Source: Rhodocyclales bacterium | GTDB taxonomy: Bacteria > Pseudomonadota > Gammaproteobacteria > Burkholderiales > Rhodocyclaceae | Direction of reading: 5' to 3' | Length of the DNA stretch: 64,000 nt | NCBI GenBank assembly: GCA_016183655.1 | Contig: JACPEH010000012.1 | Location: 62,001-126,000, forward strand | Part shown: positions 18,246 to 35,684 of the stretch, piece by piece | Position numbering within the stretch: position 1 is the stretch's first letter | Layout of the letters: each line of letters begins with the position of its first letter | Notes under the pieces: model-generated | The model's database searches: none | The model's input: only the letters and a program-made list of their open reading frames with translations | Told to the model about the DNA's origin: nothing | Program-made: the position numbers and the translations under genes

Positions 18246-18353
18246 GCCAAGCATCTGATTCTCCGAAGATTGCGGCCGGGAAGGTATACTTGCGCGTTTG
18301 GCGCGGGCCCCTCCCCGTTAAGGCCCCGCCCCCTGACTGCAAGAGACCCGACC

Positions 18354-20111
18354 TTGGCACTGACTGTACTTGGACTCTCCGGCGCGCTGACGCACGACCC
18401 CTCGGCCGCCCTCTATATCGACGGCAAGCTGGTGGCGGCCGCGGAAGAGGAACGCTTCGTCCGCGACAAGCACGCAAAGAACCGCATGCCCTACGAGGCG
18501 GCGAAGTTCTGCCTCGAATTCGCCGGCATCAAGCCGTCCGACGTCGACGTCGTCGCCATCCCGTTCGCGCCGATCAGCCTGGCCGAGAAGGCGCGCTGGC
18601 ACTACGCGAAACGCTACTGGTACGCACCCGACCGCGCGCTGGATGCGATCTTCACCGGCAACCGCCGCCACTTCCGCTACAAGAAGCGCATCGAGTGGTG
18701 CCTGGCGCAGCTCGGCTTCGACCTGAAGAAGATCGAGATCGTGCCGGTCGAGCACCACCTCGCGCACGCCTCCAGCGCCTACCACTGCTCCGGCTTCGGC
18801 GAGAAGACGGCGATCCTCGGCATCGACGGCAAGGGCGAGTACGCAACGACCTTCTTCGGCTATGGCGAGAACGGCCGCATCCACAAGATCAAGGAGTTCT
18901 ACGACCCGGATTCGCTCGGCGGCCTGTACGGCGCGATCACCGAATACCTCGGCTTCGAGATGCTCGACGGCGAGTACAAGGTGATGGGCATGGCGCCCTA
19001 CGGCGACCCGACGAAATACGACTTCTCGCGGCTGGCGAAATTCGAGAACGGCGAACTGATCGTCAACACCGACTACGCCAACGTGATCGGCTTCCGCCGC
19101 TACAAGGAGAAGGGCAAGGGCTACTACTTCTCGCCCAAGCTGATCGACTGGCTCGGCCCGAAGCGCTCCGGCGACATCGCCGACGACCCGTACATCCACT
19201 ACGCGGCGAGCATGCAGAAGCTGTTCGAGGACCTGTCGCTGCAGATGATCGAGTACTACCTCGGCGACATCCTCAAGGAAACCGGCAAGCTGGCCTTCGC
19301 CGGCGGCGGCGCGCTGAACGTCAAGCTGAACCAGAAGATCATCGCCCGCCCCGACCTCAAGGAACTGTTCGTGCAGCCCGCCTCGGGCGACGCCGGCACG
19401 GCGATCGGCGCGGCCTCGTACGTGTCGGTCGCACGCGGCGTGCCGGTGGAGAAGATGGAGCACGTCTACCTCGGCCCGGCCTACAGCAACGAGGACGTGA
19501 TCGCCGCCTGCGCGCGCCATCCGTCCAAGCCGCAGTGGCGGCAGATCGACAACGGCGACGTCGAGGTGCCGAAGCAGATCGCCAAGATCCTCGCCGACGG
19601 CAACCCGGTCGCCTGGTTCCGCGGCCGCATGGAATTCGGCCCGCGCGCGCTCGGCGGCCGCTCCATCCTCGGCTGCCCGAGCGCCGCCGGCGTCGCCGAC
19701 CGCATCAACGAGCAGATCAAGTTCCGCGAGCGCTGGCGCCCGTTCTGCCCGAGCATGCTCGACACCGTCGGGCCGAAGATGCTCGGCAGCGACCACCCGG
19801 CGCCGTTCATGACCTTCACCTTCGAGGTCGCCGAGGAGTGGAAGTCGCGCGTCCCCGAGGTCGTCCATGAGGACGGCACCTCGCGCGCGCAGGTGCTGAA
19901 GCGCGAGTACAACCCGCGCTACTACGACCTGATGCTCGAACTGGAAAAGCTGACCGGCAACGGCGTCGCGCTCAACACCTCGCTCAACCGCCGCGGCGAG
20001 CCGATGATCTGCTCGCCGACCGACGCCCTCAACATGTTCTTCGGATCGGATCTGCAGTACCTGATCATGGAGGACGTGCTGGTGGTCAAGGACTCGGCCA
20101 GGACGGAGTAG
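18354..20111 (+). CDS. NodU/CmcH-type carbamoyltransferase (WapO-like), LPS core modification
   Basis: 585 residues from TTG 18354, read as (M)ALTVLGLSGALTHDPSAAL, with AAGAG upstream. The ORF-track start at 18270 adds a Pro/Arg stretch without homology. The N-terminal domain has DPSAALYIDGKLVAAAEEERF and the HHLAHASSAY histidine motif near residue 134, which binds metal and carbamoyl phosphate. GGGALNVKLNQKI follows near 315, then the C-terminal YrdC-like domain with FRGRMEFGPRALGGRS near 425 and ERWRPFCPS. These enzymes carbamoylate sugars through carbamoyl adenylate. In P. aeruginosa a relative (WapO) carbamoylates heptose II of the LPS core. The next gene, four bases on, is a WapH-like glycosyltransferase, in keeping with that role. 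Confidence 0.88.
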   Translation: MALTVLGLSGALTHDPSAALYIDGKLVAAAEEERFVRDKHAKNRMPYEAAKFCLEFAGIKPSDVDVVAIPFAPISLAEKARWHYAKRYWYAPDRALDAIFTGNRRHFRYKKRIEWCLAQLGFDLKKIEIVPVEHHLAHASSAYHCSGFGEKTAILGIDGKGEYATTFFGYGENGRIHKIKEFYDPDSLGGLYGAITEYLGFEMLDGEYKVMGMAPYGDPTKYDFSRLAKFENGELIVNTDYANVIGFRRYKEKGKGYYFSPKLIDWLGPKRSGDIADDPYIHYAASMQKLFEDLSLQMIEYYLGDILKETGKLAFAGGGALNVKLNQKIIARPDLKELFVQPASGDAGTAIGAASYVSVARGVPVEKMEHVYLGPAYSNEDVIAACARHPSKPQWRQIDNGDVEVPKQIAKILADGNPVAWFRGRMEFGPRALGGRSILGCPSAAGVADRINEQIKFRERWRPFCPSMLDTVGPKMLGSDHPAPFMTFTFEVAEEWKSRVPEVVHEDGTSRAQVLKREYNPRYYDLMLELEKLTGNGVALNTSLNRRGEPMICSPTDALNMFFGSDLQYLIMEDVLVVKDSARTE

Positions 20112-20115
20112 GCGC

Positions 20116-21249
20116 GTGGCCGAACGCTGGGTCCTGCAGTTCTGCCATTCGCACTACGGCCCTTTCGCCGACGTCGCCCGCCAGTACGCGGCGCTGTTCA
20201 AGGGTTCGCCGTACAAGGTGCTCACCGTCTACCTGACCGGTGAGCCGAACGAGGCAGTCCGCCAGGTGTCCGCGTCGGACGAGGTGATCTTCCTCGACTT
20301 CAGCAGCAAGGCGGTCGGCGGCCTCAAGCTCGCCGCCATCCGCGCGCTGAAGAAGATCGCCGCCAGCCGCGACTTCGCGCTGGTGATCGCCCACCGCGCC
20401 AAGCCGATCTACATCGCCTGCCTGGCGACCAGGCTGCCGGTGATCGGCGTGCACCACGCCTTCGGCGACTACAAGCGCATGACGCGCCGCTGCTTCGCCA
20501 ACGCTTTCAGGAAACGTCTGGCGCTGCTCGGCGTTTCCGACGCGGTGCGCGACGACATCCGCAAGCAGTTTCCGGACTGGCCGGCGGACCGCATCGAGAC
20601 ACTGCACAACCGGCTCGACGTCGCCGTCGCGCGCGCCGGGATCGTCCCGCGCGCGGCGGCCCGGCAGGCGCTCGGCCTGCCGGCCGACGCCCTCGTCGTC
20701 GGCAACGTCGGCCGCCTGCACGCGGACAAGGATCAGGCGACGCTGATCGCCGGTTTCGCCCAGGCGCTGCCGGGCCTGCCGGCCGGCACGCTGCTCGCGA
20801 TCGCCGGCAGCGGGCCGCTCGAAGCGGCATTGCGCCGGCAGATCACCGCTCTCGGCATCGGCGACCGCGTCCGCCTGCTCGGCCAGGTGCCGGACGTGCG
20901 CCGGCTGTTCGCCGCCTTCGACCTGTTCGTCCTCAGTTCCGACCATGAGCCGTTCGGCATGGTGCTGCTCGAAGCGATGGCCGCCGGCGTGCCGGTCATG
21001 GCCACCGACTGCGGCGGCGCGCCGGAGGTCGTCGGCCGGGCCGGGCTGCTGTTCGCGCTGCGCGATGCCGACGGCTTGGCGAACAAGCTCGTCGATTTCT
21101 GCAATAGCGACGCCGACGCCCGGCGCGCCTCCTGCATCGACGCTGCGCAGCGCCTCGAAACCGCCTTCTCCGACGCAGCCGCACGCCGGCGCTTCCATGC
21201 GCTGCCGATGGTGCGGCAGGCTCTCGCCAACGGGGAAGCGGCACGATGA
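20116..21249 (+). CDS. GT4 family glycosyltransferase (WapH-like)
   Basis: 377 residues from GTG 20116, four bases after the carbamoyltransferase stop. The C-terminal half shows the GT-B nucleotide-sugar domain: VGNVGRLHADKDQATLI near 198, LLAIAGSGPLEAALR, and the retaining EX7E region HEPFGMVLLEAMAAGVPV near 280. The N-terminal acceptor domain is alpha/beta (VLTVYLTGEPNEAVRQ, VIAHRAKPIYIACLA). It should transfer an activated sugar to the LPS core in the cytoplasm. Similarity to P. aeruginosa WapH is inferred from its position beside the carbamoyltransferase. It overlaps the next gene by four bases. Confidence 0.85.
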   Translation: MAERWVLQFCHSHYGPFADVARQYAALFKGSPYKVLTVYLTGEPNEAVRQVSASDEVIFLDFSSKAVGGLKLAAIRALKKIAASRDFALVIAHRAKPIYIACLATRLPVIGVHHAFGDYKRMTRRCFANAFRKRLALLGVSDAVRDDIRKQFPDWPADRIETLHNRLDVAVARAGIVPRAAARQALGLPADALVVGNVGRLHADKDQATLIAGFAQALPGLPAGTLLAIAGSGPLEAALRRQITALGIGDRVRLLGQVPDVRRLFAAFDLFVLSSDHEPFGMVLLEAMAAGVPVMATDCGGAPEVVGRAGLLFALRDADGLANKLVDFCNSDADARRASCIDAAQRLETAFSDAAARRRFHALPMVRQALANGEAAR

Positions 21250-22280
21250 GCGACGCAACCACAGCCCTCACAGCCCTCGCCGCCCGCGGGGAAGCCCGCA
21301 TCGCGCTGGTCGCCTTCAGCTCGCTCGGCGACGGCCTGATCTACCTGATGATGGCCGAGAACCTGCGGCTGAACGGCTACAACGTCACCTACTTCGGCAA
21401 CATCGCGCATCAGATCCGGCACTGGCTGCCGCAGCTGGACATCCAGCCCTATCCGGCGCCGGAGCGTTTCGATGAAGCGCTGACCGGCTTCGACCTGGTG
21501 ATCATGAGCCCGCCGCAATTCCTCCGCGACCGCATGGACGAGCCGACGACCGAGGCGCTGCGCAAGAAGTGGGTCCTGATCTGCCAAAAGACGCCCCAGG
21601 GCTGGCGGCACGACCATACCGAGCGCGTGCGCAGCACCAGCGACGCACGCACCTTCGAAGCGCTGCGCGACCTGCTCGACTGCAGCGGCTCGATCCGCTT
21701 CCGCGACTTCGACACCGAGAGCGTCGTCGACATCACCTTGCACTACATGCGCGAGAAGATGCACCTGCGCCAGCTGACGCGGCACGTCGCCATCACGCCG
21801 CCCGCCGGCTTGCTGCACCGCCGGCATCGCCAACGCATCGTCGTCAGCCCGGATTCGGCCTGGCCGGTGAAGAAGAACTGGCCGCCGCAGTCGTTCATGC
21901 GCCTGTGCCTGGCGCTGCAGGCGCGCGGCTACGACCCGAAGATCGTCGTCGCGCCGGCCAACCACGACTACTGGGCGAAGCTGCCCGGCAACGTCTTCGA
22001 CACCCCGGTCTTCCCCGGCATCGACGCCCTTGCCGCCTACCTCTACGAATCCGGCGCGGTGATCGCCAACGATTCGGGCAACGGCCACCTCGCCTCCTTC
22101 CTCAACGTGCCGGTGGTGACGCTGTACCGCAAGCGCAACCCGCACTTTCACTGGCGCCCGGCCTGGGGCCCCGGCACCGTCGTCTGCCCGCGACTGACGC
22201 TGCCCTGGTTCGGCGAACCGATCTGGAAGCCGTTCATCGGCACGCGCGCCATCCTCGCCGCGTTGAGCAAGGTGATATGA
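21246..22280 (+). CDS. GT9-like heptosyltransferase family protein
   Basis: 344 residues; ATGA overlap with both neighbours. An N-terminal alpha/beta segment (RIALVAFSSLGDGLIYLMMAENLRLNG) resembles the GT9 opening, in which Gly-Asp-x-(L/I/V) is conserved. The C-terminal domain has IVVSPDSAWPVKKNWPPQSFMRLCLAL and GAVIANDSGNGHLASFLNVPVVTLY, close to the ADP-heptose binding site in which D(S/T)GxxHxA is typical. The helper His of 'GNGH' is present. It may transfer heptose or another sugar to the core. It is divergent from WaaC/WaaF, which I do not see in this window. Confidence 0.75.
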   Translation: MSDATTALTALAARGEARIALVAFSSLGDGLIYLMMAENLRLNGYNVTYFGNIAHQIRHWLPQLDIQPYPAPERFDEALTGFDLVIMSPPQFLRDRMDEPTTEALRKKWVLICQKTPQGWRHDHTERVRSTSDARTFEALRDLLDCSGSIRFRDFDTESVVDITLHYMREKMHLRQLTRHVAITPPAGLLHRRHRQRIVVSPDSAWPVKKNWPPQSFMRLCLALQARGYDPKIVVAPANHDYWAKLPGNVFDTPVFPGIDALAAYLYESGAVIANDSGNGHLASFLNVPVVTLYRKRNPHFHWRPAWGPGTVVCPRLTLPWFGEPIWKPFIGTRAILAALSKVI

Positions 22281-23332
22281 GCCAGCCGCGCAAGATCCTC
22301 ATTCTCGACGGCATCGGCGGCGTTCCGCTCGGCCGCGAAGTCTGCGAGACTTTCGCCGCGCTCGGCATCGACACCACCCACGTCGACTGCCTGCGCCAGC
22401 AGCGGCGCCCGTTCTATGCCGCGCACTCCGCCTACGCCAAGCTGCGCAACCGCGGCGACGATCGCGACGCCTTCTACTTCCTGCCGAAGCTAGTCGGCGA
22501 CGACCTGCGCCAACTGATCGCCCGCGAACAGCCGAGCCACATCCTGGTCGTCGGCTTCATCTACAAGTTCTACGACCCGAAACTGCTGCGCCGGCTTGCC
22601 GACGAAGCCGGGGCCGGACTGTTCCTCTACGACACCGACACCTGCAACCTGTACGCGCGGCGACGCGAGTTCATATTCTTCGTCGAGAGCGAGCTGCCGG
22701 CTTACGATCGCATCCTCTCCTGCTCGGCGGTGACGACGCGCTTCTTCCGCGATACGCGCGGGCTGGACGCAGTCTTTGTTCCGTTCGGCGCCAAGCCGAT
22801 CGACGTCGCGCCCGGCAAGCAGCCGATCGACGTGCTGTTCGTCGGCAGCGGCGACCTGCGCCGCATCTTCCTGCTCGAAGGCATCCGCGACCGCGTGACG
22901 ATCCGCGGCAACCGCTGGCAGCGCAACTTCCCGCTGATCTCGGCGCCGCTGCGCGCACGTATCGACGACCGGCCGGTCTGGGGTGAGGAACTGCATCGCC
23001 TGCTCGGCCAGTCGAAGATCGTGCTCAACATCACGCGCACCGACTTCTTCGGCGCCGAGACCGGCATCAACCTGCGTATCTTCGAGGCGCTCGCCGCCGG
23101 CTGTTTCCTGCTGACCGATCACTGCGACGAGCTGGCCGGACTGTTCCGCATCGGCGAGGAGATCGAGACCTACCGCTCCTCGGGCGAGCTGGCCGAGAAG
23201 GTGAGCCATTACCTCGCCCACGACGACCAGCGTCGCGCCATCGCCCAAGCGGGATACGCGACCTTCCTGCGCGAGCACACCTGGCAGGCGCGGATAGAAC
23301 GGCAGATGCTGCCGCTACTGGCGCGCCGCTGA
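22277..23332 (+). CDS. CgeB-like GT-B glycosyltransferase (Glyco_trans_1_2 type)
   Basis: 351 residues from ATG 22277, overlapping the previous gene by four bases. The N-terminal half is an alpha/beta fold (KILILDGIGGVPLGREVCETFAALG). The C-terminal half shows SKIVLNITRTDFFGAETGINLRIFEALAAGCFLLTDHCDELAGLF, followed by EEIETYRSSGELAEKVSHYL, the pattern of CgeB-like glycosyltransferases. Helix/strand pattern IDVLFVGSGDLRRIFLLEGI links the two. It belongs to the co-oriented glycosyltransferase run and most likely extends the LPS core. Sugar donor unknown. Confidence 0.72.
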   Translation: MSQPRKILILDGIGGVPLGREVCETFAALGIDTTHVDCLRQQRRPFYAAHSAYAKLRNRGDDRDAFYFLPKLVGDDLRQLIAREQPSHILVVGFIYKFYDPKLLRRLADEAGAGLFLYDTDTCNLYARRREFIFFVESELPAYDRILSCSAVTTRFFRDTRGLDAVFVPFGAKPIDVAPGKQPIDVLFVGSGDLRRIFLLEGIRDRVTIRGNRWQRNFPLISAPLRARIDDRPVWGEELHRLLGQSKIVLNITRTDFFGAETGINLRIFEALAAGCFLLTDHCDELAGLFRIGEEIETYRSSGELAEKVSHYLAHDDQRRAIAQAGYATFLREHTWQARIERQMLPLLARR

Positions 23333-23395
23333 GCATTTCCGGCGGAAAACGACGATACTTCACCCCTCGGCGAGCCCCGAACAACAATTTCCAAC

Positions 23396-24892
23396 ATGCT
23401 CAATTCCCTGCGTACCCGCCCCCTGCCGCCCTGGCTGACTCCCGTGCGTGCGGTTTTCCTCGGCAGCCTGCTGCTGTCGCTGATCGCGCGCCTGGGCAGC
23501 ACGCTCAACCGCGACGGCATGCTCTACGTGAAAGGCGCGCAGGCATTCCTTGACGGCGGCTTCGCCGCCGCCCGGGAAGTGTTCAACTGGCCCTTTCTTT
23601 CCATTGCGATGGCCGTTGTCGCGAAGATCACCGGACTCGGCCTGGAGAATGCCGGCCACCTGCTGAACGCCTTCTTCATGGCCGGCGCCTGCGCGTTGAC
23701 GGTCGCCTGCGTCGAGCGCCGGCAGGCCGAGCTGGCCTGGCTCGCGGCCCTTGTCGCGCTGGCGCTGCCGGGCCTGAACGAGTACCGCAACGAACTGTTG
23801 CGCGAGTACGGCTGTTGGTTCTTCGTCATACTGTCGTTGTGGCTGGCGTTGCGCTGGTCGGAGTCGCCGCGCTGGGCATCGGCCGTCGCCGTCCAGGCGG
23901 CGCTGGGTGCCGCGGCACTGTTCCGGCCGGAAGCGCTGGCGCTCTTTCCGGCCTTGCTGGCGTGGCAGTTCGTCGCGGCGCCGCGTGCCGATCGCCGGCG
24001 GCGGCTGCTGATGCTCGGCGCGTTGCCGATCGCCGGCGCAGCCGCGCTGCTGGCGCTGTACCTCGGCGGGCATCTGTCGAACGGCAACCGCCTCGCCGAC
24101 GACCTCGGCCGCCTCAGCGCGTCGCGCTTCGACGCCAAGGCACAGGCACTCGCCTCGGCACTGATCGCCTACGCCAGAGAACAGGCCAGAACGATCCTGC
24201 TCTTCGGCTCGCTCGCCCTCGTCCCGCTCAAGGTCCTGCAGAAGCTGGGAATCTTCGTCGTGCCGCTGGCGTTCGTGTTCGTCAGTCGCCAAGCGCGCCC
24301 GACCTTTTCCCGCCACCCGCTGTTCGCCTGGGGGATCGCGGCCCATCTGCTGGTTCTGGCGGTCTTCGTCGTCGACCTGCAGTTCCTCGCCGGGCGCTAT
24401 GTCGGCCTGATCCTGCTCTTCTCGACCCCGTTCGTCGCCGCCGGCCTGTCGCTGATGCTGCAGCGCTATCCGCGCTGGCGCCCCGTGCTACTGGTCGGCG
24501 CCGGCCTGCTGATGTTCGCCAACGTCGTCTCCACCGGCCCGGGCAAAACGCATCTGGTCGATGCCGGCGGCTGGCTGGCCGGCAATGGCGCGGAATCGAC
24601 CAGGACTTATATCGACAGCGGGCGGACCGCCTATCACGCCGGCTGGCAGAAGGCCAAGATCGCCACCCGGAATCAGCGCGCGGAGGTCGAGCAGGCGATC
24701 GCCGAGGGTCGCTACGAGCTCTACGTGCTGGAGCATTCGCGCAAGGACGCGCCGGTCGAAGACTGGCTCACGCAAGCCGGCCTGCGCGTCGTCAAGCGCT
24801 TCGACCACCCGAACGGCGACGCCGTGATCGTCGCGGCCCCGATTGCCAGAATCCAGGTTCCGGAAAAACCGGAAAGCGCAGGAAACCGATGA
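23396..24892 (+). CDS. GT-C-like polytopic membrane protein
   Basis: 498 residues with about ten membrane helices between residues 20 and 400, then a soluble C-terminal domain (about 410-498). The first loop carries NRDGMLYVKGAQAF, an acidic D-G-x-x-Y pattern like the catalytic loop of GT-C enzymes (ArnT, PMT, EmbC-like). GT-C enzymes use lipid-linked sugars and act on the periplasmic side. The 62-bp gap before it is the only real break in the plus-strand arm. A role in transferring a lipid-linked sugar to the core or to lipid A is plausible but unproven. It could also be a membrane protein of the family without activity. Confidence 0.65.
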   Translation: MLNSLRTRPLPPWLTPVRAVFLGSLLLSLIARLGSTLNRDGMLYVKGAQAFLDGGFAAAREVFNWPFLSIAMAVVAKITGLGLENAGHLLNAFFMAGACALTVACVERRQAELAWLAALVALALPGLNEYRNELLREYGCWFFVILSLWLALRWSESPRWASAVAVQAALGAAALFRPEALALFPALLAWQFVAAPRADRRRRLLMLGALPIAGAAALLALYLGGHLSNGNRLADDLGRLSASRFDAKAQALASALIAYAREQARTILLFGSLALVPLKVLQKLGIFVVPLAFVFVSRQARPTFSRHPLFAWGIAAHLLVLAVFVVDLQFLAGRYVGLILLFSTPFVAAGLSLMLQRYPRWRPVLLVGAGLLMFANVVSTGPGKTHLVDAGGWLAGNGAESTRTYIDSGRTAYHAGWQKAKIATRNQRAEVEQAIAEGRYELYVLEHSRKDAPVEDWLTQAGLRVVKRFDHPNGDAVIVAAPIARIQVPEKPESAGNR

Positions 24893-25809
24893 CCCTCCCG
24901 CTCGTCAGCATCGCCATTCCGGCCTACCGGCACGCGAAGTACATCGAGACCTGCCTGGCTTCGGTGTGCGCGCAGACCTATCCCGAACTGGAGCTGGTGC
25001 TGATCGACGACGGGTCGCCCGACGACACCTTCGAGGTCGCCAGCCGCTTCCTCGATGCCCATCGCGACCGCTTTCGCCGCATCGTCCTTGAACGCCGGGA
25101 AAACCGGGGGGTGAGCGCCAACTCGAACGCCTGCATCGAAGCCTGCAGTGGGGAATGGGTGCATCTTCTCGGGTCGGACGACCGGCTCTACCCGGAAAAG
25201 GTCGCGCGCATCCAGGCCGCGATCGCCGAGTGGAGCGTTCCGGACCTGGCGCTGGTGCATACCGACACCGACACCATCGACGCCGACGGCATGGTACGGC
25301 CGGTGCGCCGGACGGATCGGCATGCGCCGCCGGGCCCGGACCATGCGGCCTACCGCTGGCTGTTCCACCACAACCTGATCTCCAACCCGTCGATCGCGTT
25401 GCGCCGCGACGCCTTTCTCGCGATCGGCGGCTTCGATCCGACGCTGCCGCTGGAGGACATCGATTGCTGGCTGCGGCTGTCCGCCCGCTACGCGATCGGA
25501 CGCGTGCCGGAGGTGCTGGCGAGCTACCGCAAGCACCCCGGCAACTCGCTGCGCCAACGGCAGAAGATGCTCGGCGCCTTCTTCGTCACCTATGCCAAGT
25601 TCATCGAAGCGAACCCGGGGCTGATCCCGGACACGGAGCTGCGGCGGCATTTCCGCTGGTATCTGCGGCGCTTCTGGAACCGCATCCGCGGCAGGGAGCC
25701 GTCGCGCCTGCCGCTGTTCGCCGGCGCCCTGCTCGGGAGTTACTTCCGCACGCCGCGGGCGGCAGACTATCGCCGCTTCGGCGAAATCCTGCTCAAGGCG
25801 GCGAACTGA
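24889..25809 (+). CDS. GT2 family glycosyltransferase
   Basis: 306 residues; start overlaps the previous stop by four bases. GT-A fold with VSIAIPAYRHAKYIETCLASVCAQTYPELELVLIDDGSPDDT at the N terminus and a DxD-like motif HTDTDTIDADG near 125. An acceptor-side motif GGFDPTLPLEDIDCWLRLS (ED) is near 200. The C-terminal about 70 residues are basic and helical (RWYLRRFWNRIRGREPSR). Transfers an activated sugar in the cytoplasm. It ends seven bases from the convergent fusion kinase gene, with no visible terminator between. Confidence 0.88.
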   Translation: MTLPLVSIAIPAYRHAKYIETCLASVCAQTYPELELVLIDDGSPDDTFEVASRFLDAHRDRFRRIVLERRENRGVSANSNACIEACSGEWVHLLGSDDRLYPEKVARIQAAIAEWSVPDLALVHTDTDTIDADGMVRPVRRTDRHAPPGPDHAAYRWLFHHNLISNPSIALRRDAFLAIGGFDPTLPLEDIDCWLRLSARYAIGRVPEVLASYRKHPGNSLRQRQKMLGAFFVTYAKFIEANPGLIPDTELRRHFRWYLRRFWNRIRGREPSRLPLFAGALLGSYFRTPRAADYRRFGEILLKAAN

Positions 25810-25816
25810 AGCCGGC

Positions 25817-28042
25817 TCACTGACGGGGAGCGGAGAACAGGCGCTTCCACGCTTTGCGCCCGACGCGCCGCTTCGCGGCGACCTTCAGGTCGTAGACGAC
25901 GAACGGCCAGCGGTGCCACCAGCGCAGCTTCTCGCGCAGCGCCGACAGGTAGATGCCGAGGAATTTCTCGCGCCCGGCCCAGTGCAGCTTGTTGCAGATG
26001 CGCACCAGATCGGCGAAACGCTCGCGCAGCGGCAGCGGCCCGCGGAAGACGCGGATGCGCCCGGTGTCGATCAGCGAGAAGGCCAGGCCGCCGGCATCGG
26101 TGCGACGGATCAGGATGTTGCCGCCGGAAAGGTCGCGGAAGAGGATGCCGCGGCCGTGCATCGTCAGCAGGTAGGCGGCGAGCTGGCGATAGGCGGTCTC
26201 CTCGTCGACGCCGGCGAACGTTTTCTCGCCTGCGGCGAACGCCGACACCAACTCGCGCGCGGTGAATTCGGCGGGAACGTATTCGCAGACGTAGAAATTC
26301 TGCGTCAGGCTGCGGTCGCCTTCCTTCTCGAACCAGGCCACCGGCGGTGCCGCGGCGACGCCGCGGCGCAACAGCTCGCTGGTGCCGTTCCAGCTGCGCA
26401 GGCCTTTCGAGGGCTTGAAACGGTCCAGCAGCTTCTTGTGCAGATGCATCCTCACCGGCTGCTTGACGACCAGCTTGGCACCGTCGGCGCGCGGATCGTC
26501 GACCGTCCAGATCGCATTACGCGCATGGCGCAGCGTCGCCTCGCGCGGCGGCGCACCGATCCGTTGCGGATGAATCCGCTGCAGCAACCGCTCGGCTTCG
26601 GCGCCGTCGCGGGCGAGCACGATGCCGCGCCAGCCGTCTTCCCGGAAGTAGAAGTGCGTTTTCCCCGGCGCATGGCGGTGGATGGCGACATCCTTCAACA
26701 CCGCAGCCGTCGTCTTCACGACCACCGTGCGCGCTGCCGGCCAGAGCAGGTAGAGCGGCGCCTCGCTGGCCAGCGTCGGCCGCTCGCGCAGGATCTCCCC
26801 GTCGCGGCAACGGCACAGTGCCGTGCGCAGATCCTCGTCGGCATAGATGTCCTGCAGCGCGGCAGCACGGCCGTTGGTGGTCCACACGACATGGACCAGG
26901 CCGGTTCCGGTCTGGAAGGCATGCACTTCGAGCTGCTCGGAAGCGTTCAGGCGGCCGCCGTAGCGGCTGCCCGGAATCAGCTCGGCAAAGGCCGTCAGCG
27001 CGCGCAACGCCGGGCGCGCCCGCAGATCGGAGAGTCCGCCGCGCAGGCCGGCATAGTGGGTGATGCGCTCCAGTGCCGGATAGGGGAAGTCGCCTTCGTC
27101 GACCAGGCCCTCGCGGTGGCAGACCAGCGGCCCCCACCAGGCACGCTCCAGCGCCCCCGACGCCGCGCACAGCACCAGGTAGCGCGTCAGGTAGTCGGCC
27201 TGTTTCTCCTCGCTGTCCGGCAACAGGCGTTCGATGCGCGGCAAGGTCCAGAACGCCGACGGCGAGAACAGCCGCGGCACGCCGAAATCGGCGCCGATAC
27301 GTGCCAACAGCCGCGCCTTCTTGACCAGATTGAATTTGTGCAGCGGCGCCAGCCGGTGGCCGAGGATCTTGTGGTCGTAGCGCTCCGGTTCGGTGCAGCG
27401 CTCCGAGAACAGATTGTCGGTGTGCAGGTCGGGCAACTGCCCGCGCTCGCGCAGCAGCGCCAGCAGCCCGACGTTCCACGGCGGCTCGAAATCGGTGACG
27501 CTCGGTCCGGCGAGCGTCACCCCGCGCGCGCGCGCCTCACGCCAGGCAATGTCCCACAGTGCAAGGAAGCCGGCGAGCGTATGGCCCGCCCAGCGCTTGC
27601 GATTGACCGTCGAGCCGACCTCGACGATCTCGACACGCGTCCCGAAACGATCCAGCGTCGCCGCGACAAAGTCCAGCCATTCCCGACGCGCCTCATCCGA
27701 GGTTTCCATCTTGCGCGCCCGCTCGGCGGGCTGCACCAGATGCAGCGTGACGTGGAAGGCTTCGCCGAGCAGCCGTTCGAGCAGCCGCGCCGCCGGCCGC
27801 TCGGCGTCACCGTAGGTGAAGTCGAGGCGGACGTGGCGGACACCGGCTTCGCGCAGACGGGCCAGCAGCCAGTCGTCGACCGCCGGGTCGGCAGCGGCGG
27901 CGACGCCGACCCCGGCAAAGGCCTCGGCAACGACGTGCCCGGCCGGCGGCCGATGTCCGCCGGGACAGCGCAGGCCGCCGCGCAGCAGATAGCCGAGCAG
28001 GGCCGAGGCAAAACGCAGGCGCGGGCTCGTTGCCTCGCTCAT
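25817..28042 (-). CDS. Fusion: glycoside-hydrolase-like domain + LPS kinase-like domain
   Basis: 741 residues with two unrelated parts. Residues about 40-365 look like a TIM-barrel glycoside hydrolase: VRHVRLDFTYGD, VTLHLVQPAER, VEIVEVGSTVNRKRWAG, VTLAGPSVTDFEPPWN and LERAWWGPLVCH are strand-end motifs in order. Next comes a beta-rich linker (about 370-450, LEVHAFQTGTGLVHVVWTTNG). Residues about 460-741 are a WaaP/InaA-type kinase: VVKQP near 527, the catalytic loop FRDLSGGN (635-642) and LIDTG (657-661) in place of DFG. The kinase Asp and Asn are kept. At the expected barrel acid/base site GSTVN replaces the usual NEP, so hydrolysis is doubtful. The start overlaps the 203-aa kinase-like gene by four bases. 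Function unknown; LPS core modification is inferred from the cluster. Confidence 0.75.
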   Translation of the reverse strand: MSEATSPRLRFASALLGYLLRGGLRCPGGHRPPAGHVVAEAFAGVGVAAAADPAVDDWLLARLREAGVRHVRLDFTYGDAERPAARLLERLLGEAFHVTLHLVQPAERARKMETSDEARREWLDFVAATLDRFGTRVEIVEVGSTVNRKRWAGHTLAGFLALWDIAWREARARGVTLAGPSVTDFEPPWNVGLLALLRERGQLPDLHTDNLFSERCTEPERYDHKILGHRLAPLHKFNLVKKARLLARIGADFGVPRLFSPSAFWTLPRIERLLPDSEEKQADYLTRYLVLCAASGALERAWWGPLVCHREGLVDEGDFPYPALERITHYAGLRGGLSDLRARPALRALTAFAELIPGSRYGGRLNASEQLEVHAFQTGTGLVHVVWTTNGRAAALQDIYADEDLRTALCRCRDGEILRERPTLASEAPLYLLWPAARTVVVKTTAAVLKDVAIHRHAPGKTHFYFREDGWRGIVLARDGAEAERLLQRIHPQRIGAPPREATLRHARNAIWTVDDPRADGAKLVVKQPVRMHLHKKLLDRFKPSKGLRSWNGTSELLRRGVAAAPPVAWFEKEGDRSLTQNFYVCEYVPAEFTARELVSAFAAGEKTFAGVDEETAYRQLAAYLLTMHGRGILFRDLSGGNILIRRTDAGGLAFSLIDTGRIRVFRGPLPLRERFADLVRICNKLHWAGREKFLGIYLSALREKLRWWHRWPFVVYDLKVAAKRRVGRKAWKRLFSAPRQ

Positions 28043-28650
28043 CGCGGATCACCGGCCCCGGCCACCCGACCATTGACGATGGCGTCGAGGTCGAGCCAGG
28101 CGCTCTCCTCGGCCAAACCCTGCATGCGGCGCATGTTGCGCGCGCGCAGATACTTGCCGAGCGCCCAGGGGTGGATGCGCAGGTCGGAGAAGTCGATCAG
28201 CCCGAGGCGGCCGTCCGGCGTGCGGACGACGTTGCCGAGGTGCAGCGAGCGGAAATAGATGCCCTTGTCGTGCAGCCCGATAACGAAGCGGGTGAACGCC
28301 GCCTTCAGTTCGCGTTCGCCTTGCTGCGACAAGCCTGCCCGCGCCATCTCGCGCAGCGTCGTGCCGGCCAGCGGCGTGTAATGGACCGCATCGCGCTCGA
28401 TCGACGGAATGCGCAGGACGTCGATCACCTGCGGCACCGGGATGCCCAGCCGGGCCAGCGCTACCGCGTTGTTGGCAAAGCGCCGGGCGTAGGGATAGAG
28501 CGCGGCCGACGACAGCACCCGCCGGCGACGGAAGAGCTTGAAGATGGTCCCGTCGGCGAGGCGCAGCACCTTGTCGCCGTGGTGGTCGACTTCGAGCACC
28601 TCGGCGCCCTCGCGCAAGGCGAGATAGTCCCGCTGTTCCAGTCTCTTCAA
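28039..28650 (-). CDS. InaA-type kinase-like protein (PA4998/toluene tolerance-like), catalytic Asp missing
   Basis: 203 residues. The opening EVLEVDHHGDKVLRLADGTIFKLFRRRR holds a beta-rich N-lobe with Lys in IFKLF. The catalytic loop reads YFRSLHLGNVV, so the expected D of HGDLHLGN is Ser, and the DFG position is LIDFSDL. The same R-S-L-H-L-G-N pattern occurs, as I recall, in the P. aeruginosa PA4998 family next to msbA; the loss may be a family trait rather than damage. It is divergent from msbA across a 132-bp gap, as PA4998 neighbours msbA. Either a pseudokinase or a kinase with an altered mechanism. Confidence 0.75.
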   Translation of the reverse strand: MKRLEQRDYLALREGAEVLEVDHHGDKVLRLADGTIFKLFRRRRVLSSAALYPYARRFANNAVALARLGIPVPQVIDVLRIPSIERDAVHYTPLAGTTLREMARAGLSQQGERELKAAFTRFVIGLHDKGIYFRSLHLGNVVRTPDGRLGLIDFSDLRIHPWALGKYLRARNMRRMQGLAEESAWLDLDAIVNGRVAGAGDPR

Positions 28651-28726
28651 GGGTCGGCCCGCCGATAAAACCCGCTAGTTTACCGTCTTGCAGCGGCCAG
28701 AGGTACAAAGGCCGCCGGGGGCGGCA

Positions 28727-28735
28727 TGCTAAACT
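28727..28735 (+). promoter_or_regulatory. Extended -10 promoter for msbA
   Basis: TGC-TAAACT is an extended -10 (TGn-TAAACT); no good -35 lies at the right spacing, as expected for that class. It overlaps the ATG at 28726 that heads the track ORF, which argues that the true msbA start is the later ATG 28783. Confidence 0.4.
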
Positions 28736-28782
28736 CCGCCGTCCCCGCGATAACCCGTACGCCGCATCCGAAAGCCCTGCCC

Positions 28783-30609
28783 ATGCCGCAATCCGGCCCG
28801 AAACATCCCGCCAAGCACACCTCGTCGCTGAAGGTCTATCTGCGGCTGCTCAGTTACCTGCGGCCGTTCCTCGGCCTGTTCACGGTCAGCATCGTCGGCT
28901 ACGTGATCTTCGCCTCGTCGCAGCCGATGATGGCCGCCGTCCTCAAGTACTTCGTCGACGGCCTGACGGCGCCGGCCGATGTCACCCATCACGCGCTGCC
29001 GCTGATCGGCAGCGTGCAGTTGATGTATGGCGTGCCGCTGCTGCTGGTGATGATCATCACCTGGCAAGGCATCGGCTCCTTCTTCGGCAACTATTACCTC
29101 GCCCGCGTTTCGCTCGGCCTGATCAACGACCTGCGCCGGGCGCTGTTCGACAACCTGCTGCGCCTGCCCAACGCCTATTTCGACCAGCACAATTCCGGCC
29201 ACCTGATCTCGCGCATCACCTACAACGTGACCATGGTCACCGGCGCCGCCACCGACGCCATCAAGGTCGTCATCCGCGAAGGCCTGACCGTGGTCTTCCT
29301 CTTCTCCTACCTGCTGTGGATGAACTGGAAGCTGACGCTGGTCATGCTCGCCATCCTGCCGATCATCGGCGGCATGGTCGCCAGCGCCAGCCGCAAGTTC
29401 CGCAAGCAGAGCAAGAAGATCCAGGTGGCGATGGGCGACCTGACGCACATCGCCTCGGAAACGATCCAGGGCTACCGCGTCGTCAGGAGCTTCGGCGGCG
29501 AGGACTACGAATCGGCGCGCTTCAAGGCGGCCAGCGAGGACAACACCGCCAAGCAGTTGCGCATGGTGAAGACCGGCGCCACCTTCACGCCGGCGCTGCA
29601 GTTCGTCATCTTCACGACGATGGCGACGGTGCTCTTCCTGGTGCTGCTGCTGCGCGGCGACTCCTCGGCCGGCGACCTGGTCTCCTACATCACCGCCGCC
29701 GGCATGCTGCCGAAGCCGATCCGTCAGCTGTCCGAGGTCAGCGGCACGATCCAGAAGGGCATCGCCGGCGCCGAAAGCATCTTCTCCCAGCTCGACGAAG
29801 CCACCGAGACCGACCGCGGCACGGTCGAGCGCGAACGCGTCAGCGGCCGGCTGGAAGTCCGCGGACTCAGCTTCACCTACCCCGGCAGCGCGCAGCCGGT
29901 GCTGCGCGACCTCGACTTCAGCGTCGCCCCCGGGCAGATGGTGGCCATCGTCGGCCGCTCGGGCAGCGGCAAGTCAACGCTGGCCAGCCTGATCCCGCGC
30001 TTCTACCATCATGCCGAAGGCCAGATCCTGATCGACGGCGTCGACGTCGAAGACTACACGCTGAAGAACCTGCGCCGGCACATCGCGCTGGTCACGCAGC
30101 AGGTCGTCCTGTTCAACGACACGGTCGCCCGCAACATCGCCTACGGCGACCTCGCCCAGGCGCCGCGCGCGGAAATCGAGCAGGCCGCGGAAGCGGCTTT
30201 TGCCCGCGAATTCATCGACCGCTTGCCACAGGGTTTCGACACGCTGGTCGGCGAAAACGGCGTCCTGCTTTCCGGCGGCCAGCGCCAGCGCCTGGCGATC
30301 GCGCGCGCACTGCTCAAGAACGCACCGATCCTGATCCTCGACGAGGCCACCTCGGCGCTCGACACCGAATCCGAACGGCACATCCAGGCGGCGCTCGACC
30401 GCGTCATGCAGGGCCGGACGACGCTGGTCATCGCCCACCGCCTGTCGACGATCGAAAAGGCCGACCTCATCCTGGTCATGGATCAGGGGCAGATCGTCGA
30501 GCGCGGTACGCACGCCGAACTGCTGGCAGCCAACGGCCACTACGCACGCCTGCATGCGGTGCAGTTCGAGGAAGGAACGGAAGACGCCGGCGACGACAGC
30601 GCCGCCTGA
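28783..30609 (+). CDS. msbA: Lipid A export ABC transporter MsbA
   Basis: 608 residues from ATG 28783. Six membrane helices (about 30-320) with the coupling and substrate-cavity regions are followed by the nucleotide-binding domain. Walker A is GRSGSGKST near 393, the Q-loop ALVTQQVVLFND, signature LSGGQRQR near 500, Walker B ILILDEATSALD and the H-loop AHRLST. MsbA is an inner-membrane half-transporter that dimerises and flips core-lipid A to the periplasmic face. It sits in the middle of the core-synthesis genes, convergent with the tandem kinase (19 bp apart). The start 19 codons earlier in the ORF track is less likely. Confidence 0.93.
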   Translation: MPQSGPKHPAKHTSSLKVYLRLLSYLRPFLGLFTVSIVGYVIFASSQPMMAAVLKYFVDGLTAPADVTHHALPLIGSVQLMYGVPLLLVMIITWQGIGSFFGNYYLARVSLGLINDLRRALFDNLLRLPNAYFDQHNSGHLISRITYNVTMVTGAATDAIKVVIREGLTVVFLFSYLLWMNWKLTLVMLAILPIIGGMVASASRKFRKQSKKIQVAMGDLTHIASETIQGYRVVRSFGGEDYESARFKAASEDNTAKQLRMVKTGATFTPALQFVIFTTMATVLFLVLLLRGDSSAGDLVSYITAAGMLPKPIRQLSEVSGTIQKGIAGAESIFSQLDEATETDRGTVERERVSGRLEVRGLSFTYPGSAQPVLRDLDFSVAPGQMVAIVGRSGSGKSTLASLIPRFYHHAEGQILIDGVDVEDYTLKNLRRHIALVTQQVVLFNDTVARNIAYGDLAQAPRAEIEQAAEAAFAREFIDRLPQGFDTLVGENGVLLSGGQRQRLAIARALLKNAPILILDEATSALDTESERHIQAALDRVMQGRTTLVIAHRLSTIEKADLILVMDQGQIVERGTHAELLAANGHYARLHAVQFEEGTEDAGDDSAA

Positions 30610-30628: not shown

Positions 30629-32071
30629 TCAAGCCGGCGGCAACGTCCGCTGCAGCCAGCGGCCCAGCACCGACGCCTCCGGCCAGTTGCGCAGCAGGCG
30701 GGCGCGATCCCGCCGCCAGGCCTTGCGATAGGCGGTATCGCTGCGGTGCTGCGTGCAGGCATCGAGGTCGATCAGCCAGACCCCGCCCTGATGCCAGAGC
30801 AGGTTGGTCGCCTTCAGGTCGCCGTGACTGATGCGCAGGCGATGCAGCGTCGAGAACAGCGAGGCGATCGCCGCCGCCTCGGCGCCCCCCGGCTCGCAGT
30901 CGGCCGACAGATGCTGCGCGAGGTTGGCCCCGGGGCAGAATTCGGTCACCAGCCAGGCGCGCCGGCGCAACGGGCCGAGACGTTCCTCGATCAGCGCCAG
31001 CGGGGCCGGCGTTGGAATGCCGAACAGGCCCAGGCGGTGCGCCTCGCGCCACGAATGCCAGGCCCGGCTCGGACGCCACAGACGCGACAGCGCATGGCCG
31101 ACGCTCTTTAGGTTGTAGCGCTTGATGACGACATCGCCCCCCGCCGCGCCGGCCCGGGCAACCGTGCAGGTATTGCCCGCCTTGAGGCGCACACCGGCAT
31201 CCACCGCGCGGTCCGGATCGCGTAGCAGGGGCGCCAGCCGGTCGGCCGCCGCGCGCACGACCGCGGAAAAACGCGTGGCACGCTTGTCGACCGCGAACAG
31301 CGAGCAGTCGCGTACGCATTTGGCGAGGAAGTCCTTGAGCCGCCAGTCGCGCACCCGGGCGATCTCCGCCCGCAGCTGCGCTTCGCCGACATCGGCAACG
31401 CCACCCGCGGCCCGGTAGGCCGCCAGCAGCGCGGCGCAGGAATCGTCCCAGGCCGCCGGCAGCTGCGCCAGCAGCATGCCGAGGTTCGCCGCCGCCGCGG
31501 CAGCGGTCAGCGCCTGCCCGCTCCCGCTCACCGAATCGCCGTCGATCACCAGCAGGCATTCGCCGCTGCGCAGGAAATTGCCGAGGTGCAGGTCCCCTTG
31601 CGCCAGACCGGCACGGTGCATCTGCGCCAGCACGTCGAGCGCGGGAACCAGCAGGGCCAGCGCGACTGCGTCGCCGGCCGGTCGTGCGGCAACGCTGCGC
31701 CAGCGCTCGGCCAGCGACACCGCATCGGGCAGGAAAGCCGTGAGCACGGCATGTCCGCCGCCGGCAAGCGGCGCCGCGGCACAGACGTCGGGCGTCGGAA
31801 TCCCGGCCGCCCGCAGCGCTTCGATACCCCGGCACTCCTGACGCCAGTGGCGCTCGCTGCCCGCCGCGACGAACAGTTTGGCGAGCACGCGCACGCCGCC
31901 GAAATCCGCCTCGCCAACGATGCGTTTACCGGGCAGCACCCGCAACAGACGGAAAACCGTCAGCGAGCGGCCATCCGTCAGTTCGACGCGGAACGGCAGC
32001 GGCGGCTGCCGGCCGGCGGCACGCAGCGCGGCGGCGGCGGTTAGCGGCAACGGCGGCGGCGCCTCGCTCAT
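30629..32071 (-). CDS. Tandem InaA/WaaP-type LPS kinase with two kinase domains (PA5006-like)
   Basis: 480 residues from ATG 32071 (MSEAPPP), whose ATGA overlaps the WapQ-like stop. Two kinase domains lie in tandem. Domain 1 (about 30-220) has AKLFV near 64, LAQGDLHLGN at 156-165 and VIDGDS at 175-180. Domain 2 (about 295-450) has VIKRYNL near 315, SHGDLKATN at 415-423 and LIDLDA at 433-438. Both keep the catalytic Asp and Asn; the DFG position is DGD in one and DLD in the other. P. aeruginosa PA5006 (about 474 aa) has a similar size and place in its core cluster. Likely phosphorylates core heptoses; the substrate of each domain is unknown. Confidence 0.8.
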   Translation of the reverse strand: MSEAPPPLPLTAAAALRAAGRQPPLPFRVELTDGRSLTVFRLLRVLPGKRIVGEADFGGVRVLAKLFVAAGSERHWRQECRGIEALRAAGIPTPDVCAAAPLAGGGHAVLTAFLPDAVSLAERWRSVAARPAGDAVALALLVPALDVLAQMHRAGLAQGDLHLGNFLRSGECLLVIDGDSVSGSGQALTAAAAAANLGMLLAQLPAAWDDSCAALLAAYRAAGGVADVGEAQLRAEIARVRDWRLKDFLAKCVRDCSLFAVDKRATRFSAVVRAAADRLAPLLRDPDRAVDAGVRLKAGNTCTVARAGAAGGDVVIKRYNLKSVGHALSRLWRPSRAWHSWREAHRLGLFGIPTPAPLALIEERLGPLRRRAWLVTEFCPGANLAQHLSADCEPGGAEAAAIASLFSTLHRLRISHGDLKATNLLWHQGGVWLIDLDACTQHRSDTAYRKAWRRDRARLLRNWPEASVLGRWLQRTLPPA

Positions 32072-32835
32072 TCCCGCCCCTCGAAGAACTTCAGGATGCG
32101 GCGGATGCGGCGCTTGTCGGCCACGGTCAGCCGCGCATGACCGGCGTAATCGAGATAGAAACGCAGGCGCTGCGTGCGCGACAGCTGATACTTCCCGATC
32201 TTGTCGAGACAGGCGAGGTCCTTGACGATGCGGTAGCGCAACATCGGGCCGCGCCAGAAAGCACCGCTCGGGCAATCGATCAGATAGACGGTCGGCAGCT
32301 CACCGTCATCGACCAGCAGATTTCGCCACTTCAGGTCGTTGTGCGCGAAACCGGCATCGTGCAGCCGCCGCGCGTGGTGCGCCACCTGCCGGCAGACTTC
32401 CGCCATCCAGCGCCGGTTGCGCAAGCGCTGATCGCCCTCGTTGGCCATGCTCCCGAGGTCGGCAGTGCGCGGAATTTCCTCGGTGACCAGCGCGCCGCGC
32501 GCAAAGCTGCCGCGCGTCCGCTCCAGTCCGTACGCGACCAGCGTCGCCGTCGGAATACCCCATTGCCGGAACAGCCGCAGGTTCTCCCATTCCTTGACCA
32601 CGCGCTGTGGCGCGATCAGGCCGCGCAGGCCGAACCAGCGGCGCACGGCGTTCTTGCCGTTGCCGACATAGCGCTTCACGTAGTAGCGCTTGCCGTCGGC
32701 AGCGACGCGCAGCACGCGCGACAGCGGGTCGCTGGCGATCGGCTCGCCGTCGACGGCAAAGGTCGACTCGAGCGTGCCGAACAGCCGCTCGACCGCGCCG
32801 CCGCGATAGTCCGCGTTGAACCACCAGCGCTTCAC
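32068..32835 (-). CDS. LPS core kinase, WapQ/PA5007-type
   Basis: 255 residues from GTG 32835 (VKRWWFNADYR), overlapping the waaP stop by four bases. N-lobe segment LRVAADGKRYYVKRYVGNGK has the VKRY Lys near 52. The C-lobe has a catalytic loop FAHNDLKWRNLLV (HND for HRD) near 165 and LIDCPSG near 185 where DFG is expected. The ORF track runs on to 33609 in the same frame, but that part overlaps waaP out of frame and is a shadow. Related proteins in P. aeruginosa phosphorylate the inner-core heptoses; the exact position is not readable. Confidence 0.82.
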   Translation of the reverse strand: MKRWWFNADYRGGAVERLFGTLESTFAVDGEPIASDPLSRVLRVAADGKRYYVKRYVGNGKNAVRRWFGLRGLIAPQRVVKEWENLRLFRQWGIPTATLVAYGLERTRGSFARGALVTEEIPRTADLGSMANEGDQRLRNRRWMAEVCRQVAHHARRLHDAGFAHNDLKWRNLLVDDGELPTVYLIDCPSGAFWRGPMLRYRIVKDLACLDKIGKYQLSRTQRLRFYLDYAGHARLTVADKRRIRRILKFFEGRE

Positions 32836-33653
32836 AACGCGCCCCCGGCGAACTTCTTCACGAAGCGCCGCTGCAGGCGTGCCGCCTCGCGCTTGAGGTG
32901 CTCCAGCAGGCCGGCTTCGCCGCGCAGGACATCGCGCAGCGGCGCCGCAAAATAGGTGCGCAGGAAACGCAGGAAATCGCGCTGCGTCAGGCCGATGTCG
33001 AGCGCCGAGAAATAGAGCGCGGCCAGGTCCTTGTCGCGCCAGCGACGCGGCGTCTTCGTCCGGACCTGGGCACGGTGCAGGTCGATCAGCGACAGCTTGA
33101 AGTCGCCTGCCGCCGGCGCCGGGTCGAGGTGCAGCAGGAAATGGCAGAGATAGAAGTCGCGGTGATTGACGCCTCCCTGATGCATGCGGCGCGCCATCGT
33201 CGCCACGCGCCCGATCAGCGCGCGCTTCATGCGCGGCGCCGGCAGAGCGGTCTTCCAGTCGCGGCAGAAGTCTTCCAGGCTGATCGTCGGCGCCAGCTCC
33301 TCGGTGACGATGAACGAGTGCTGCGTCGCCGGATTGTCGCCGCGTGCGCCGTAGGCCACCGCACGCATGGTGTCGACGCCCAATTCCTCCAGTCGCCGGA
33401 TCGCCCGCCATTCGTTGCCGGCGCCGAGCACCGGCAGGCGCAGCGAGACGAGGTTCTTGACGATCTCGCCCCAGCCGACGCCGCGATGGATCTTGACGAA
33501 ATAGCCGCGGCCGGCGACCTCGGTGCGCAGCGTGCGGCGCGCTTCCAGCTCGCGATAGACCTTGCCCTGCAGCGCCTCGACGGCGACGAAGGGGTCCTGC
33601 CCGGACCACAGCGTGCGGAAGGGTTCATCGACGAACAATGTCGTGTCGCTCAC
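32832..33653 (-). CDS. waaP: LPS core heptose(I) kinase WaaP (RfaP)
   Basis: 273 residues from GTG 33653 (VSDTTLFVDEPF). Shows the WaaP signature: FVKIHRGVGWGEIVKNL in the N-lobe with catalytic Lys, VTEELAPTISLEDF, then GVNHRDFYLCHFLLH near 170 and LIDLHRAQVR near 195. WaaP transfers phosphate to O4 of heptose I at the cytoplasmic face, which is important for outer-membrane stability and essential in Pseudomonas. The start codon is inside the waaG stop overlap, so waaG-waaP are coupled. Confidence 0.93.
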   Translation of the reverse strand: MSDTTLFVDEPFRTLWSGQDPFVAVEALQGKVYRELEARRTLRTEVAGRGYFVKIHRGVGWGEIVKNLVSLRLPVLGAGNEWRAIRRLEELGVDTMRAVAYGARGDNPATQHSFIVTEELAPTISLEDFCRDWKTALPAPRMKRALIGRVATMARRMHQGGVNHRDFYLCHFLLHLDPAPAAGDFKLSLIDLHRAQVRTKTPRRWRDKDLAALYFSALDIGLTQRDFLRFLRTYFAAPLRDVLRGEAGLLEHLKREAARLQRRFVKKFAGGAL

Positions 33654-34771
33654 GCGCGTTCCTTCAGGATGACGTCGGCCGCAACCTCGGCGTTGTCGTA
33701 GATATCGGCGCGCGCCGCAAAGGCCAGTCCGTTCGCCTGCCACTGCCGGCGCGCCGCGTCGTCGGTCAGCATGCGTTCGAGCGCCGCATTCAGCGCCGGC
33801 TGCGCGAAAGGTTCCGCCAGCACGATGCCGGCGCCCGCCTCGTCAATGTAGTGGGCATAGCCGCAGACGGCGGTGGTCAGCACCGGCAGCCCGGCAACGA
33901 CCGCTTCGAGCAGCACGGTGCCGGTATTCTCGTTGTACGCCGGGTGGATCAACAGGTCGGCACCGAGCAGGAAGCGCGGGATGTCGTCGCGCCCCTGCAG
34001 GATGGCGATGCGTTCGGCGACCCCGAGCGATGCTGCCAGGCGCTGGAAGGCCGAGGGTTCGTCGGCACCGATCGCGATCAGCCGCGTGCGCCGGCGCAGC
34101 GCTTCCGGCAGCGCGACGAGCGCATTCAGGCTGCGGTCCAGCCCCTTGGTCTTGAAGCCGGAGCCGATCTGCACGAGCAGGAAATCGTCGTCCGCCAGCC
34201 CGAACTCGGCGCGGAACGCGGCGCGAATGTCGCCGGCGTTCGCCGGCGCCCGCCGGTCACGCGCGATGCCAGGCGGCAGCAGGTGGAAACGCCCGGCCGG
34301 CGTGCCGTAGTGCTTGACGAACAGCGGCTGCTGCAGCGACGAGATCATCAGGATCTCGGTGCGGCTCTCCGGCGCGAACACCGCCCGCTCGTAGCCGGCG
34401 AAATGCCGGTAGCGGCCCGACAGCCGGTAGAGCGGGTTGCGCAGCGTCTGTGCCTTGTCCTCGTAGCACGGGTCGGCGGCGAAATAGACGTCGAGTCCCG
34501 GCATCTTGTTGAAGCCGACGACGCGGTCGGCCGGCCGGCCGGCGAGATCGCGCGCCACCCAGTCGGTGAACTTCGCATAGCGCCGGGCATTGGTAATCGC
34601 GCGCACCGGTACGACCTGCACCGCGAAGCCCGCGGGAACGTCGCCGCGCCATTCCAGCGTGTAGACGCGGATCATGTGCCCGCGCCGCTGGCAGGCCAGC
34701 GCAATGCGCATGAAATCGCGCTGCAGGCCGCCGTGCGGAAAATATTTGTAGAGGCAGAACGCCAGCTGCAT
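33650..34771 (-). CDS. waaG: LPS core glucosyltransferase WaaG (RfaG)
   Basis: 373 residues from ATG 34771 (MQLAFCLYKYFPHGGLQRDFMRIA). This opening, with the GGLQRD acceptor-site motif, is typical of WaaG. The GT-B donor domain shows LVQIGSGFKTKGLDRSLNAL near 200 and the retaining ENTGTVLLEAVVAGLPVLTT near 285. WaaG adds the first hexose to heptose II. The start overlaps the stop of the upstream acyltransferase (TGATG). Classical partners waaF and waaC are not in this window. Confidence 0.92.
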   Translation of the reverse strand: MQLAFCLYKYFPHGGLQRDFMRIALACQRRGHMIRVYTLEWRGDVPAGFAVQVVPVRAITNARRYAKFTDWVARDLAGRPADRVVGFNKMPGLDVYFAADPCYEDKAQTLRNPLYRLSGRYRHFAGYERAVFAPESRTEILMISSLQQPLFVKHYGTPAGRFHLLPPGIARDRRAPANAGDIRAAFRAEFGLADDDFLLVQIGSGFKTKGLDRSLNALVALPEALRRRTRLIAIGADEPSAFQRLAASLGVAERIAILQGRDDIPRFLLGADLLIHPAYNENTGTVLLEAVVAGLPVLTTAVCGYAHYIDEAGAGIVLAEPFAQPALNAALERMLTDDAARRQWQANGLAFAARADIYDNAEVAADVILKERA

Positions 34772-35640: not shown

Positions 35641-35656
35641 CGGAGAGGGGGTGAAT

Positions 35657-35684
35657 TTGCCGCAAGGGCGAAAAAGTCTATAAT
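35657..35684 (+). promoter_or_regulatory. Sigma-70 promoter for metK
   Basis: TTGCCG, 16-bp spacer, then a perfect TATAAT (35679-35684). Transcription should begin near 35691, which leaves a 5' leader of about 136 nt before the metK GTG. Confidence 0.7.

Follow-up and report, generated by a model that had tools for sequence, protein, structure and literature searches.

The stretch of DNA analysed here (the window, 64,000 nt of a Rhodocyclales bacterium) carries a gene (nt 25,817–28,042, minus strand) for a 741 aa protein in which a GH39-like (beta-alpha)8 barrel is followed by a Kdo/WaaP-type kinase domain. Each half comes from a known family; what is apparently undescribed is one conserved chain that joins both and in which the glycosidase site is doubly inactivated. 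An earlier, sequence-only reading of this DNA knew of no described protein of such a layout, and none was found in Pfam, NCBIfam or the literature searched (most subscription journals lie outside it). On balance, we favour a role as a cytoplasmic LPS-core kinase, in which the inactivated barrel would grasp the core oligosaccharide and present a defined residue to the kinase domain.

The fusion gene and its family

The ORF is a real, conserved gene. Its GC3 (0.87) is of the coding type, and the protein is found at 54–84% identity in six other genomes. Within the source genus, six of the seven searched genomes carry the gene, and the seventh, which is without it, is 74% complete. The genome is of the Rhodocyclaceae type, the nearest named relatives belonging to Propionivibrio (identity at most 69%). 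A scan of species genomes returned 77 named loci with fusion homologues, and the range of the fusion takes in Rhodocyclales, Methylophilaceae, Methylophaga, Porticoccus, pseudomonads and Verrucomicrobiota MAGs. Full length is kept in 74/74 near-complete homologues, and the barrel and kinase share one frame in every one of the 74 relatives whose match covers ≥600 residues of the query. The distances of the two halves across the family are correlated (r = 0.83), as expected for one old fusion. The later joining of a once-separate, close kinase was considered and rejected, such a kinase without the barrel being absent from 61 related genomes. A phage or plasmid origin was also rejected: relatives were absent from the viral contigs and plasmids searched, and viral fold matches to the protein were generic barrels and kinases only. 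One copy, on a contig of a Pontiellaceae MAG (L046), is 58% identical to the window protein, which is high for another phylum and possibly reflects a binning error or a recent transfer.

Residue conservation counts and AlphaFold2 modelling were based on 52 aligned fusion sequences. The whole protein was modelled as two domains (pLDDT 92.4, pTM 0.92), preceded by a predicted N-terminal helix (residues 7–20, PRLRFASALLGYLL, nt 27,983–28,024, minus strand as for all parts of the fusion given below) that may possibly contact the membrane and has a weak hydrophobic moment. The sequence-only reading had described the ORF as a TIM-barrel-like half joined to a WaaP/InaA-type kinase in one 741-residue chain, and had its coordinates right. 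The TIM barrel is present in the predicted structure at high confidence, its best Foldseek match is a GH39 glycosidase, and the kinase half passes PF06293.

The barrel and its lost glutamates

The barrel (residues ~40–345, nt 27,008–27,925) is of the clan GH-A type, with eight strands in the AlphaFold2 model, and leads into a beta-domain and linker (residues ~346–440, nt 26,723–27,007; strands at 360–435 in the model) like a region of the GH39 structure 5jvk. Modelled alone, the barrel gave a pLDDT of 93.1, and its top three Foldseek matches were all entries of PslG (E = 6e-14, TMq 0.66, 17% identity), with GH30 xylanases next. PslG was also the best, if weak, sequence match of the barrel profile in the PDB (E = 0.056, two co-linear stretches). 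Against three GH39-type proteins taken from related genomes, hhalign gave Prob 85 and E = 7e-6, the same proteins reversed or shuffled giving Prob ≤0.2. The GH39 family of Pfam (PF01229) matched neither the whole protein nor the barrel alone, and no model in Pfam or NCBIfam covers the barrel. Most likely, the N-terminal barrel descends from a GH39-type glycosidase fold.

PslG is an intracellular glycosidase, active while exopolysaccharide is being made, with its gene inside a surface-polysaccharide cluster (PMC9075953). Its nucleophile is Glu276 and its acid-base residue Glu165 (PMC11912335). This GH39 enzyme of Pseudomonas aeruginosa (PDB 4zn2, 5bx9, 9g17) shares the (beta-alpha)8 barrel and beta-domain with the fusion protein but has both catalytic glutamates and no kinase, whereas the fusion protein has a kinase and both glutamates replaced. 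At the end of beta-4 (GSTVN, residues 143–147, nt 27,602–27,616), the GH39 motif YEVWNEPS aligns with VEVGSTVN, and the acid/base column (Thr145) holds Thr in 50/52 sequences, Ala or Val in the remaining two, and Glu in none. At the end of beta-7 (FSPSAFW, residues 259–265, nt 27,248–27,268), which the HMM alignments place against IWSTEWGW of PslG and WNTETGW of GH39, the nucleophile column (Ser/Ala262) holds Ala in 34 sequences, Ser in 10, and Val, Thr, Asn and Cys in two each; here too Glu is absent (0/52). Residue 262 faces chain position 250 of PslG, which would be Glu276 if the 416-residue construct is without the first 26 residues, an offset that we infer.

Fourteen barrel residues are identical in 52/52 sequences (R72, D74, E141, N147, R148, D184, N210, E214, R215, E220, D223, R269, R310 and E311). 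Among the 19 charged or polar barrel residues conserved at ≥98%, 13 lie at C-terminal strand ends, which account for 88 of the 305 positions (p = 2.6e-4), and the sequences thus give this face the apparent look of a ligand site, be it for binding or for catalysis. The exchange of Glu for Thr at residue 145, seen as GSTVN in place of NEP, had already led the sequence-only reading to suggest that the barrel may bind sugar without cutting it. That suggestion is strengthened, as the second glutamate is also lost and the pocket is invariant. The loss at beta-7 went beyond what had been noticed earlier, as did a Phe in the kinase half at the His of the WaaP HRD motif.

The kinase domain and the kinase-free barrels

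The kinase domain (residues ~441–741, nt 25,820–26,722) matches PF06293 over residues 508–664 with 23.3 bits (gathering cut-off 21.3), and 51/52 family members match it at E ≤ 0.1. Among solved structures, WaaP (6dfl) is the first match of the kinase-half profile (E = 7.7e-7), and Foldseek also returned 6dfl (E = 4.8e-9). In common with WaaP/RfaP and the Kdo/WaaP family, the fusion protein has the kinase fold, the ATP-binding Lys (Lys527, nt 26,462–26,464), the catalytic Asp (Asp637), the metal-binding Asp (Asp659 of IDTGR, nt 26,057–26,071) and a setting in an LPS-core operon. The catalytic loop FRDLSGGN (residues 635–642, nt 26,117–26,140) is intact, as had been read from the window, with Asp637 and Asn642 each kept in 51/52 sequences; the same count applies to Lys527 and to Asp659. 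Basic helices form the C-terminus of the model (residues 708–738, nt 25,829–25,921, containing KVAAKRRVGRKAWKRLF), and their Lys720 and Lys724 are conserved at ≥98%. WaaP consists of one kinase domain (~265 aa) and has the His of HRD, whereas the fusion protein has a 440-residue barrel region ahead of the kinase and Phe at the position of the His (Phe635, 52/52). His161 of this motif is essential in WaaP, where the H161A change led to no growth (PMC6147952), and Phe635 counts against a core-kinase role.

In a homologue from a Lentisphaeria MAG (L082, 1948–4155), the equivalents of Lys527, Asp637, Asn642 and Asp659 are all replaced, with the barrel pocket left intact, and the divergence of the kinase (0.73) exceeds that of the barrel (0.55). 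By its sequence, this would be a pseudokinase and a pseudoglycosidase in one chain. Since L082 has lost the kinase residues and kept the pocket, the barrel may act without the kinase.

A class-wide search detected kinase-free barrels in seven gammaproteobacterial genomes, six of them of 362–394 aa (L100, L102–L106) and one of 546 aa (L101). They align with the fused barrels at hhalign Prob 99.9 (E = 1e-30) and have in common with them DFE on beta-5 and NR.KW on beta-4; no Pfam family matched them above cut-off, nor did NCBIfam match those tested. Most read GNAVN or a near variant on beta-4, so that the acid/base Glu is gone, and the beta-7 nucleophile Glu is kept, typically in WITE[FT]NW (WITEFNW or a near variant in most). 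In a tree they form a separate clade (support 0.96) from the fused barrels (0.72), the two together being supported at 0.999. As the kinase-free relatives have lost the acid/base Glu only, their sequences suggest a stepwise inactivation of the barrel, the order of which is inferred, the tree being no proof that kinase-free forms are ancestral. Neighbouring genes of kinase-free barrels include a tRNA methyltransferase (L114, L117), a subtilase and thymidylate synthase (L116) and an O-antigen ligase (L119).

The main rival to a role in recognition, and a rather unlikely one, is a catalytically re-tooled barrel. In its general form, which we hold to be equally doubtful, the protein would be a bifunctional enzyme whose barrel uses relocated residues (e.g., Glu186, Glu214, Glu311 or Asp74) to edit or transfer a core sugar, the kinase phosphorylating the product or a neighbour. 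Candidate acids and bases are available in the pocket, where R72, D74, E141, D184, E186, E214, R215, E220, D223, R310 and E311 are invariant or nearly so; conservation is higher in the barrel than in the kinase (mean distance 0.49 versus 0.54), the pocket is kept in L082 despite the dead kinase, and the nucleophile Glu is retained in the kinase-free barrels. However, both known GH39 catalytic glutamates are replaced in the fusion, by Thr and by Ala/Ser. A one-chain, two-step core editor, which by a new catalytic arrangement would both remodel and phosphorylate a sugar, seems slightly more doubtful still.

Genomic neighbourhood and proposed function

The start of the fusion gene overlaps (ATGA) the stop of a second small kinase gene, KIN2 (PF01636; nt 28,039–28,650, minus strand). 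Beyond it lie msbA, for the lipid A-core flippase (nt 28,726–30,609, plus strand; TIGR02203, 813 bits), and genes for a protein with two kinase domains (nt 30,629–32,275, minus strand; PF06293 twice), a further Kdo/WaaP-type kinase (nt 32,068–33,609, minus strand; real start probably near 32,830), the LPS core heptose(I) kinase WaaP/RfaP (nt 32,832–33,743, minus strand; NF011703, 440.8 bits) and a WaaG-like GT4 glycosyltransferase (nt 33,650–35,665, minus strand; PF00534, real start internal). On the other side, a carbamoyltransferase gene (nt 18,270–20,111, plus strand; PF02543/PF16861) is followed by other core-type genes (nt 20,116–25,809, plus strand), which comprise GT4, GT9, one unassigned ORF, a multi-membrane protein and GT2. 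Five LPS-type kinase genes are present in the locus. The apparent multi-membrane protein (nt 23,396–24,892, 498 aa), matched by no model in Pfam or NCBIfam, is conserved among several core loci of Rhodocyclales. In Pseudomonas, the core locus has the kinase gene PA4998 beside msbA (PMC8005017); the window locus is alike, with a kinase gene by msbA and a carbamoyltransferase, and KIN2 is judged to be PA4998-like by its position.

The cluster waaG-waaP-two kinases-msbA-KIN2-fusion is recurrent across the Rhodocyclales, and outside this order Halopseudomonas (L073) and two Methylobacillus-type loci (L044, L090) also have core genes next to the fusion. KIN2 and the fusion gene are closely coupled, by an overlap of 1–14 bases or a 1-base gap, in 16/19 loci. 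KIN2 was present in 7/7 genomes with the fusion versus 4/54 without it (Fisher p = 8e-7), a co-occurrence that does not count as strong evidence, since six of these seven are of one genus. The four relatives with KIN2 and without the fusion carry other genes at the next position, at least two of which resemble surface-glycan genes. ORFs of 698 and 739 aa after KIN2 in such relatives were considered, by their size, as remote versions of the fusion, and were rejected as a PMT-type protein and an acyltransferase-SGNH protein. One KIN2 homologue (L134, G024:C1:1733312-1733899) was reported with one in-frame TGA, which may stem from where the match was delimited or may mark a decaying gene.

Several lineages are without core genes beside the fusion, which also counts against a core kinase. 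Recognised LPS core genes are absent there in Methylophaga, Porticoccus and most Methylophilaceae, and no glycan genes were recognised near the fusion in the Methylophaga and Porticoccus loci. Just upstream of it in 12 loci, mostly of Methylophilaceae (e.g., L035:5849-7873), is an LtaS/OpgB-like sulfatase-fold gene that scores below family cut-offs. These cases, together with the action of PslG, the nearest fold, on the exopolysaccharide Psl, would suit a different target glycan (an exopolysaccharide, an osmoregulated glucan or a glycerophosphate-bearing polymer), with the LPS locus as the setting in some lineages only. We consider this improbable, as the waaP, waaG and msbA core operon accompanies the fusion in many Rhodocyclales, in Halopseudomonas and in the two Methylobacillus-type loci. 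A ligand-free structural scaffold or membrane adaptor would accord with the loss of the catalytic glutamates but is very improbable, since so many charged residues at the barrel mouth would not be expected to be kept across phyla (p = 2.6e-4).

As an LPS-core kinase, the protein would phosphorylate a hydroxyl of nascent lipid A-core through its WaaP-type C-terminal domain, with ATP as the donor, on the inner side of the inner membrane. The barrel, without both catalytic glutamates, would grip the core oligosaccharide via its conserved pocket and bring one defined residue to the kinase. That the protein works on the cytoplasmic side of the inner membrane is suggested by its requirement for ATP, by the basic helices at its C-terminus and by the absence of any evident signal sequence. 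That the barrel would choose which core residue receives the phosphate fits the context of an LPS-core operon.

Core phosphates contribute to the cohesion of the outer membrane, and to our knowledge it is not settled how LPS kinases choose the core hydroxyl. If the fusion protein is a kinase that carries a sugar-binding barrel of its own, that question could be addressed with a single protein. It would also be an instance in which a glycosidase fold has become the recognition module of a different enzyme and a half-inactivated relative survives. Glycosidase barrels reused without hydrolysis are known from the Klotho-type pseudo-glycosidases, which belong to a different family from the fusion barrel and lack a kinase domain in their chain; one of them, alpha-Klotho (5w21), appears among the remote fold matches.
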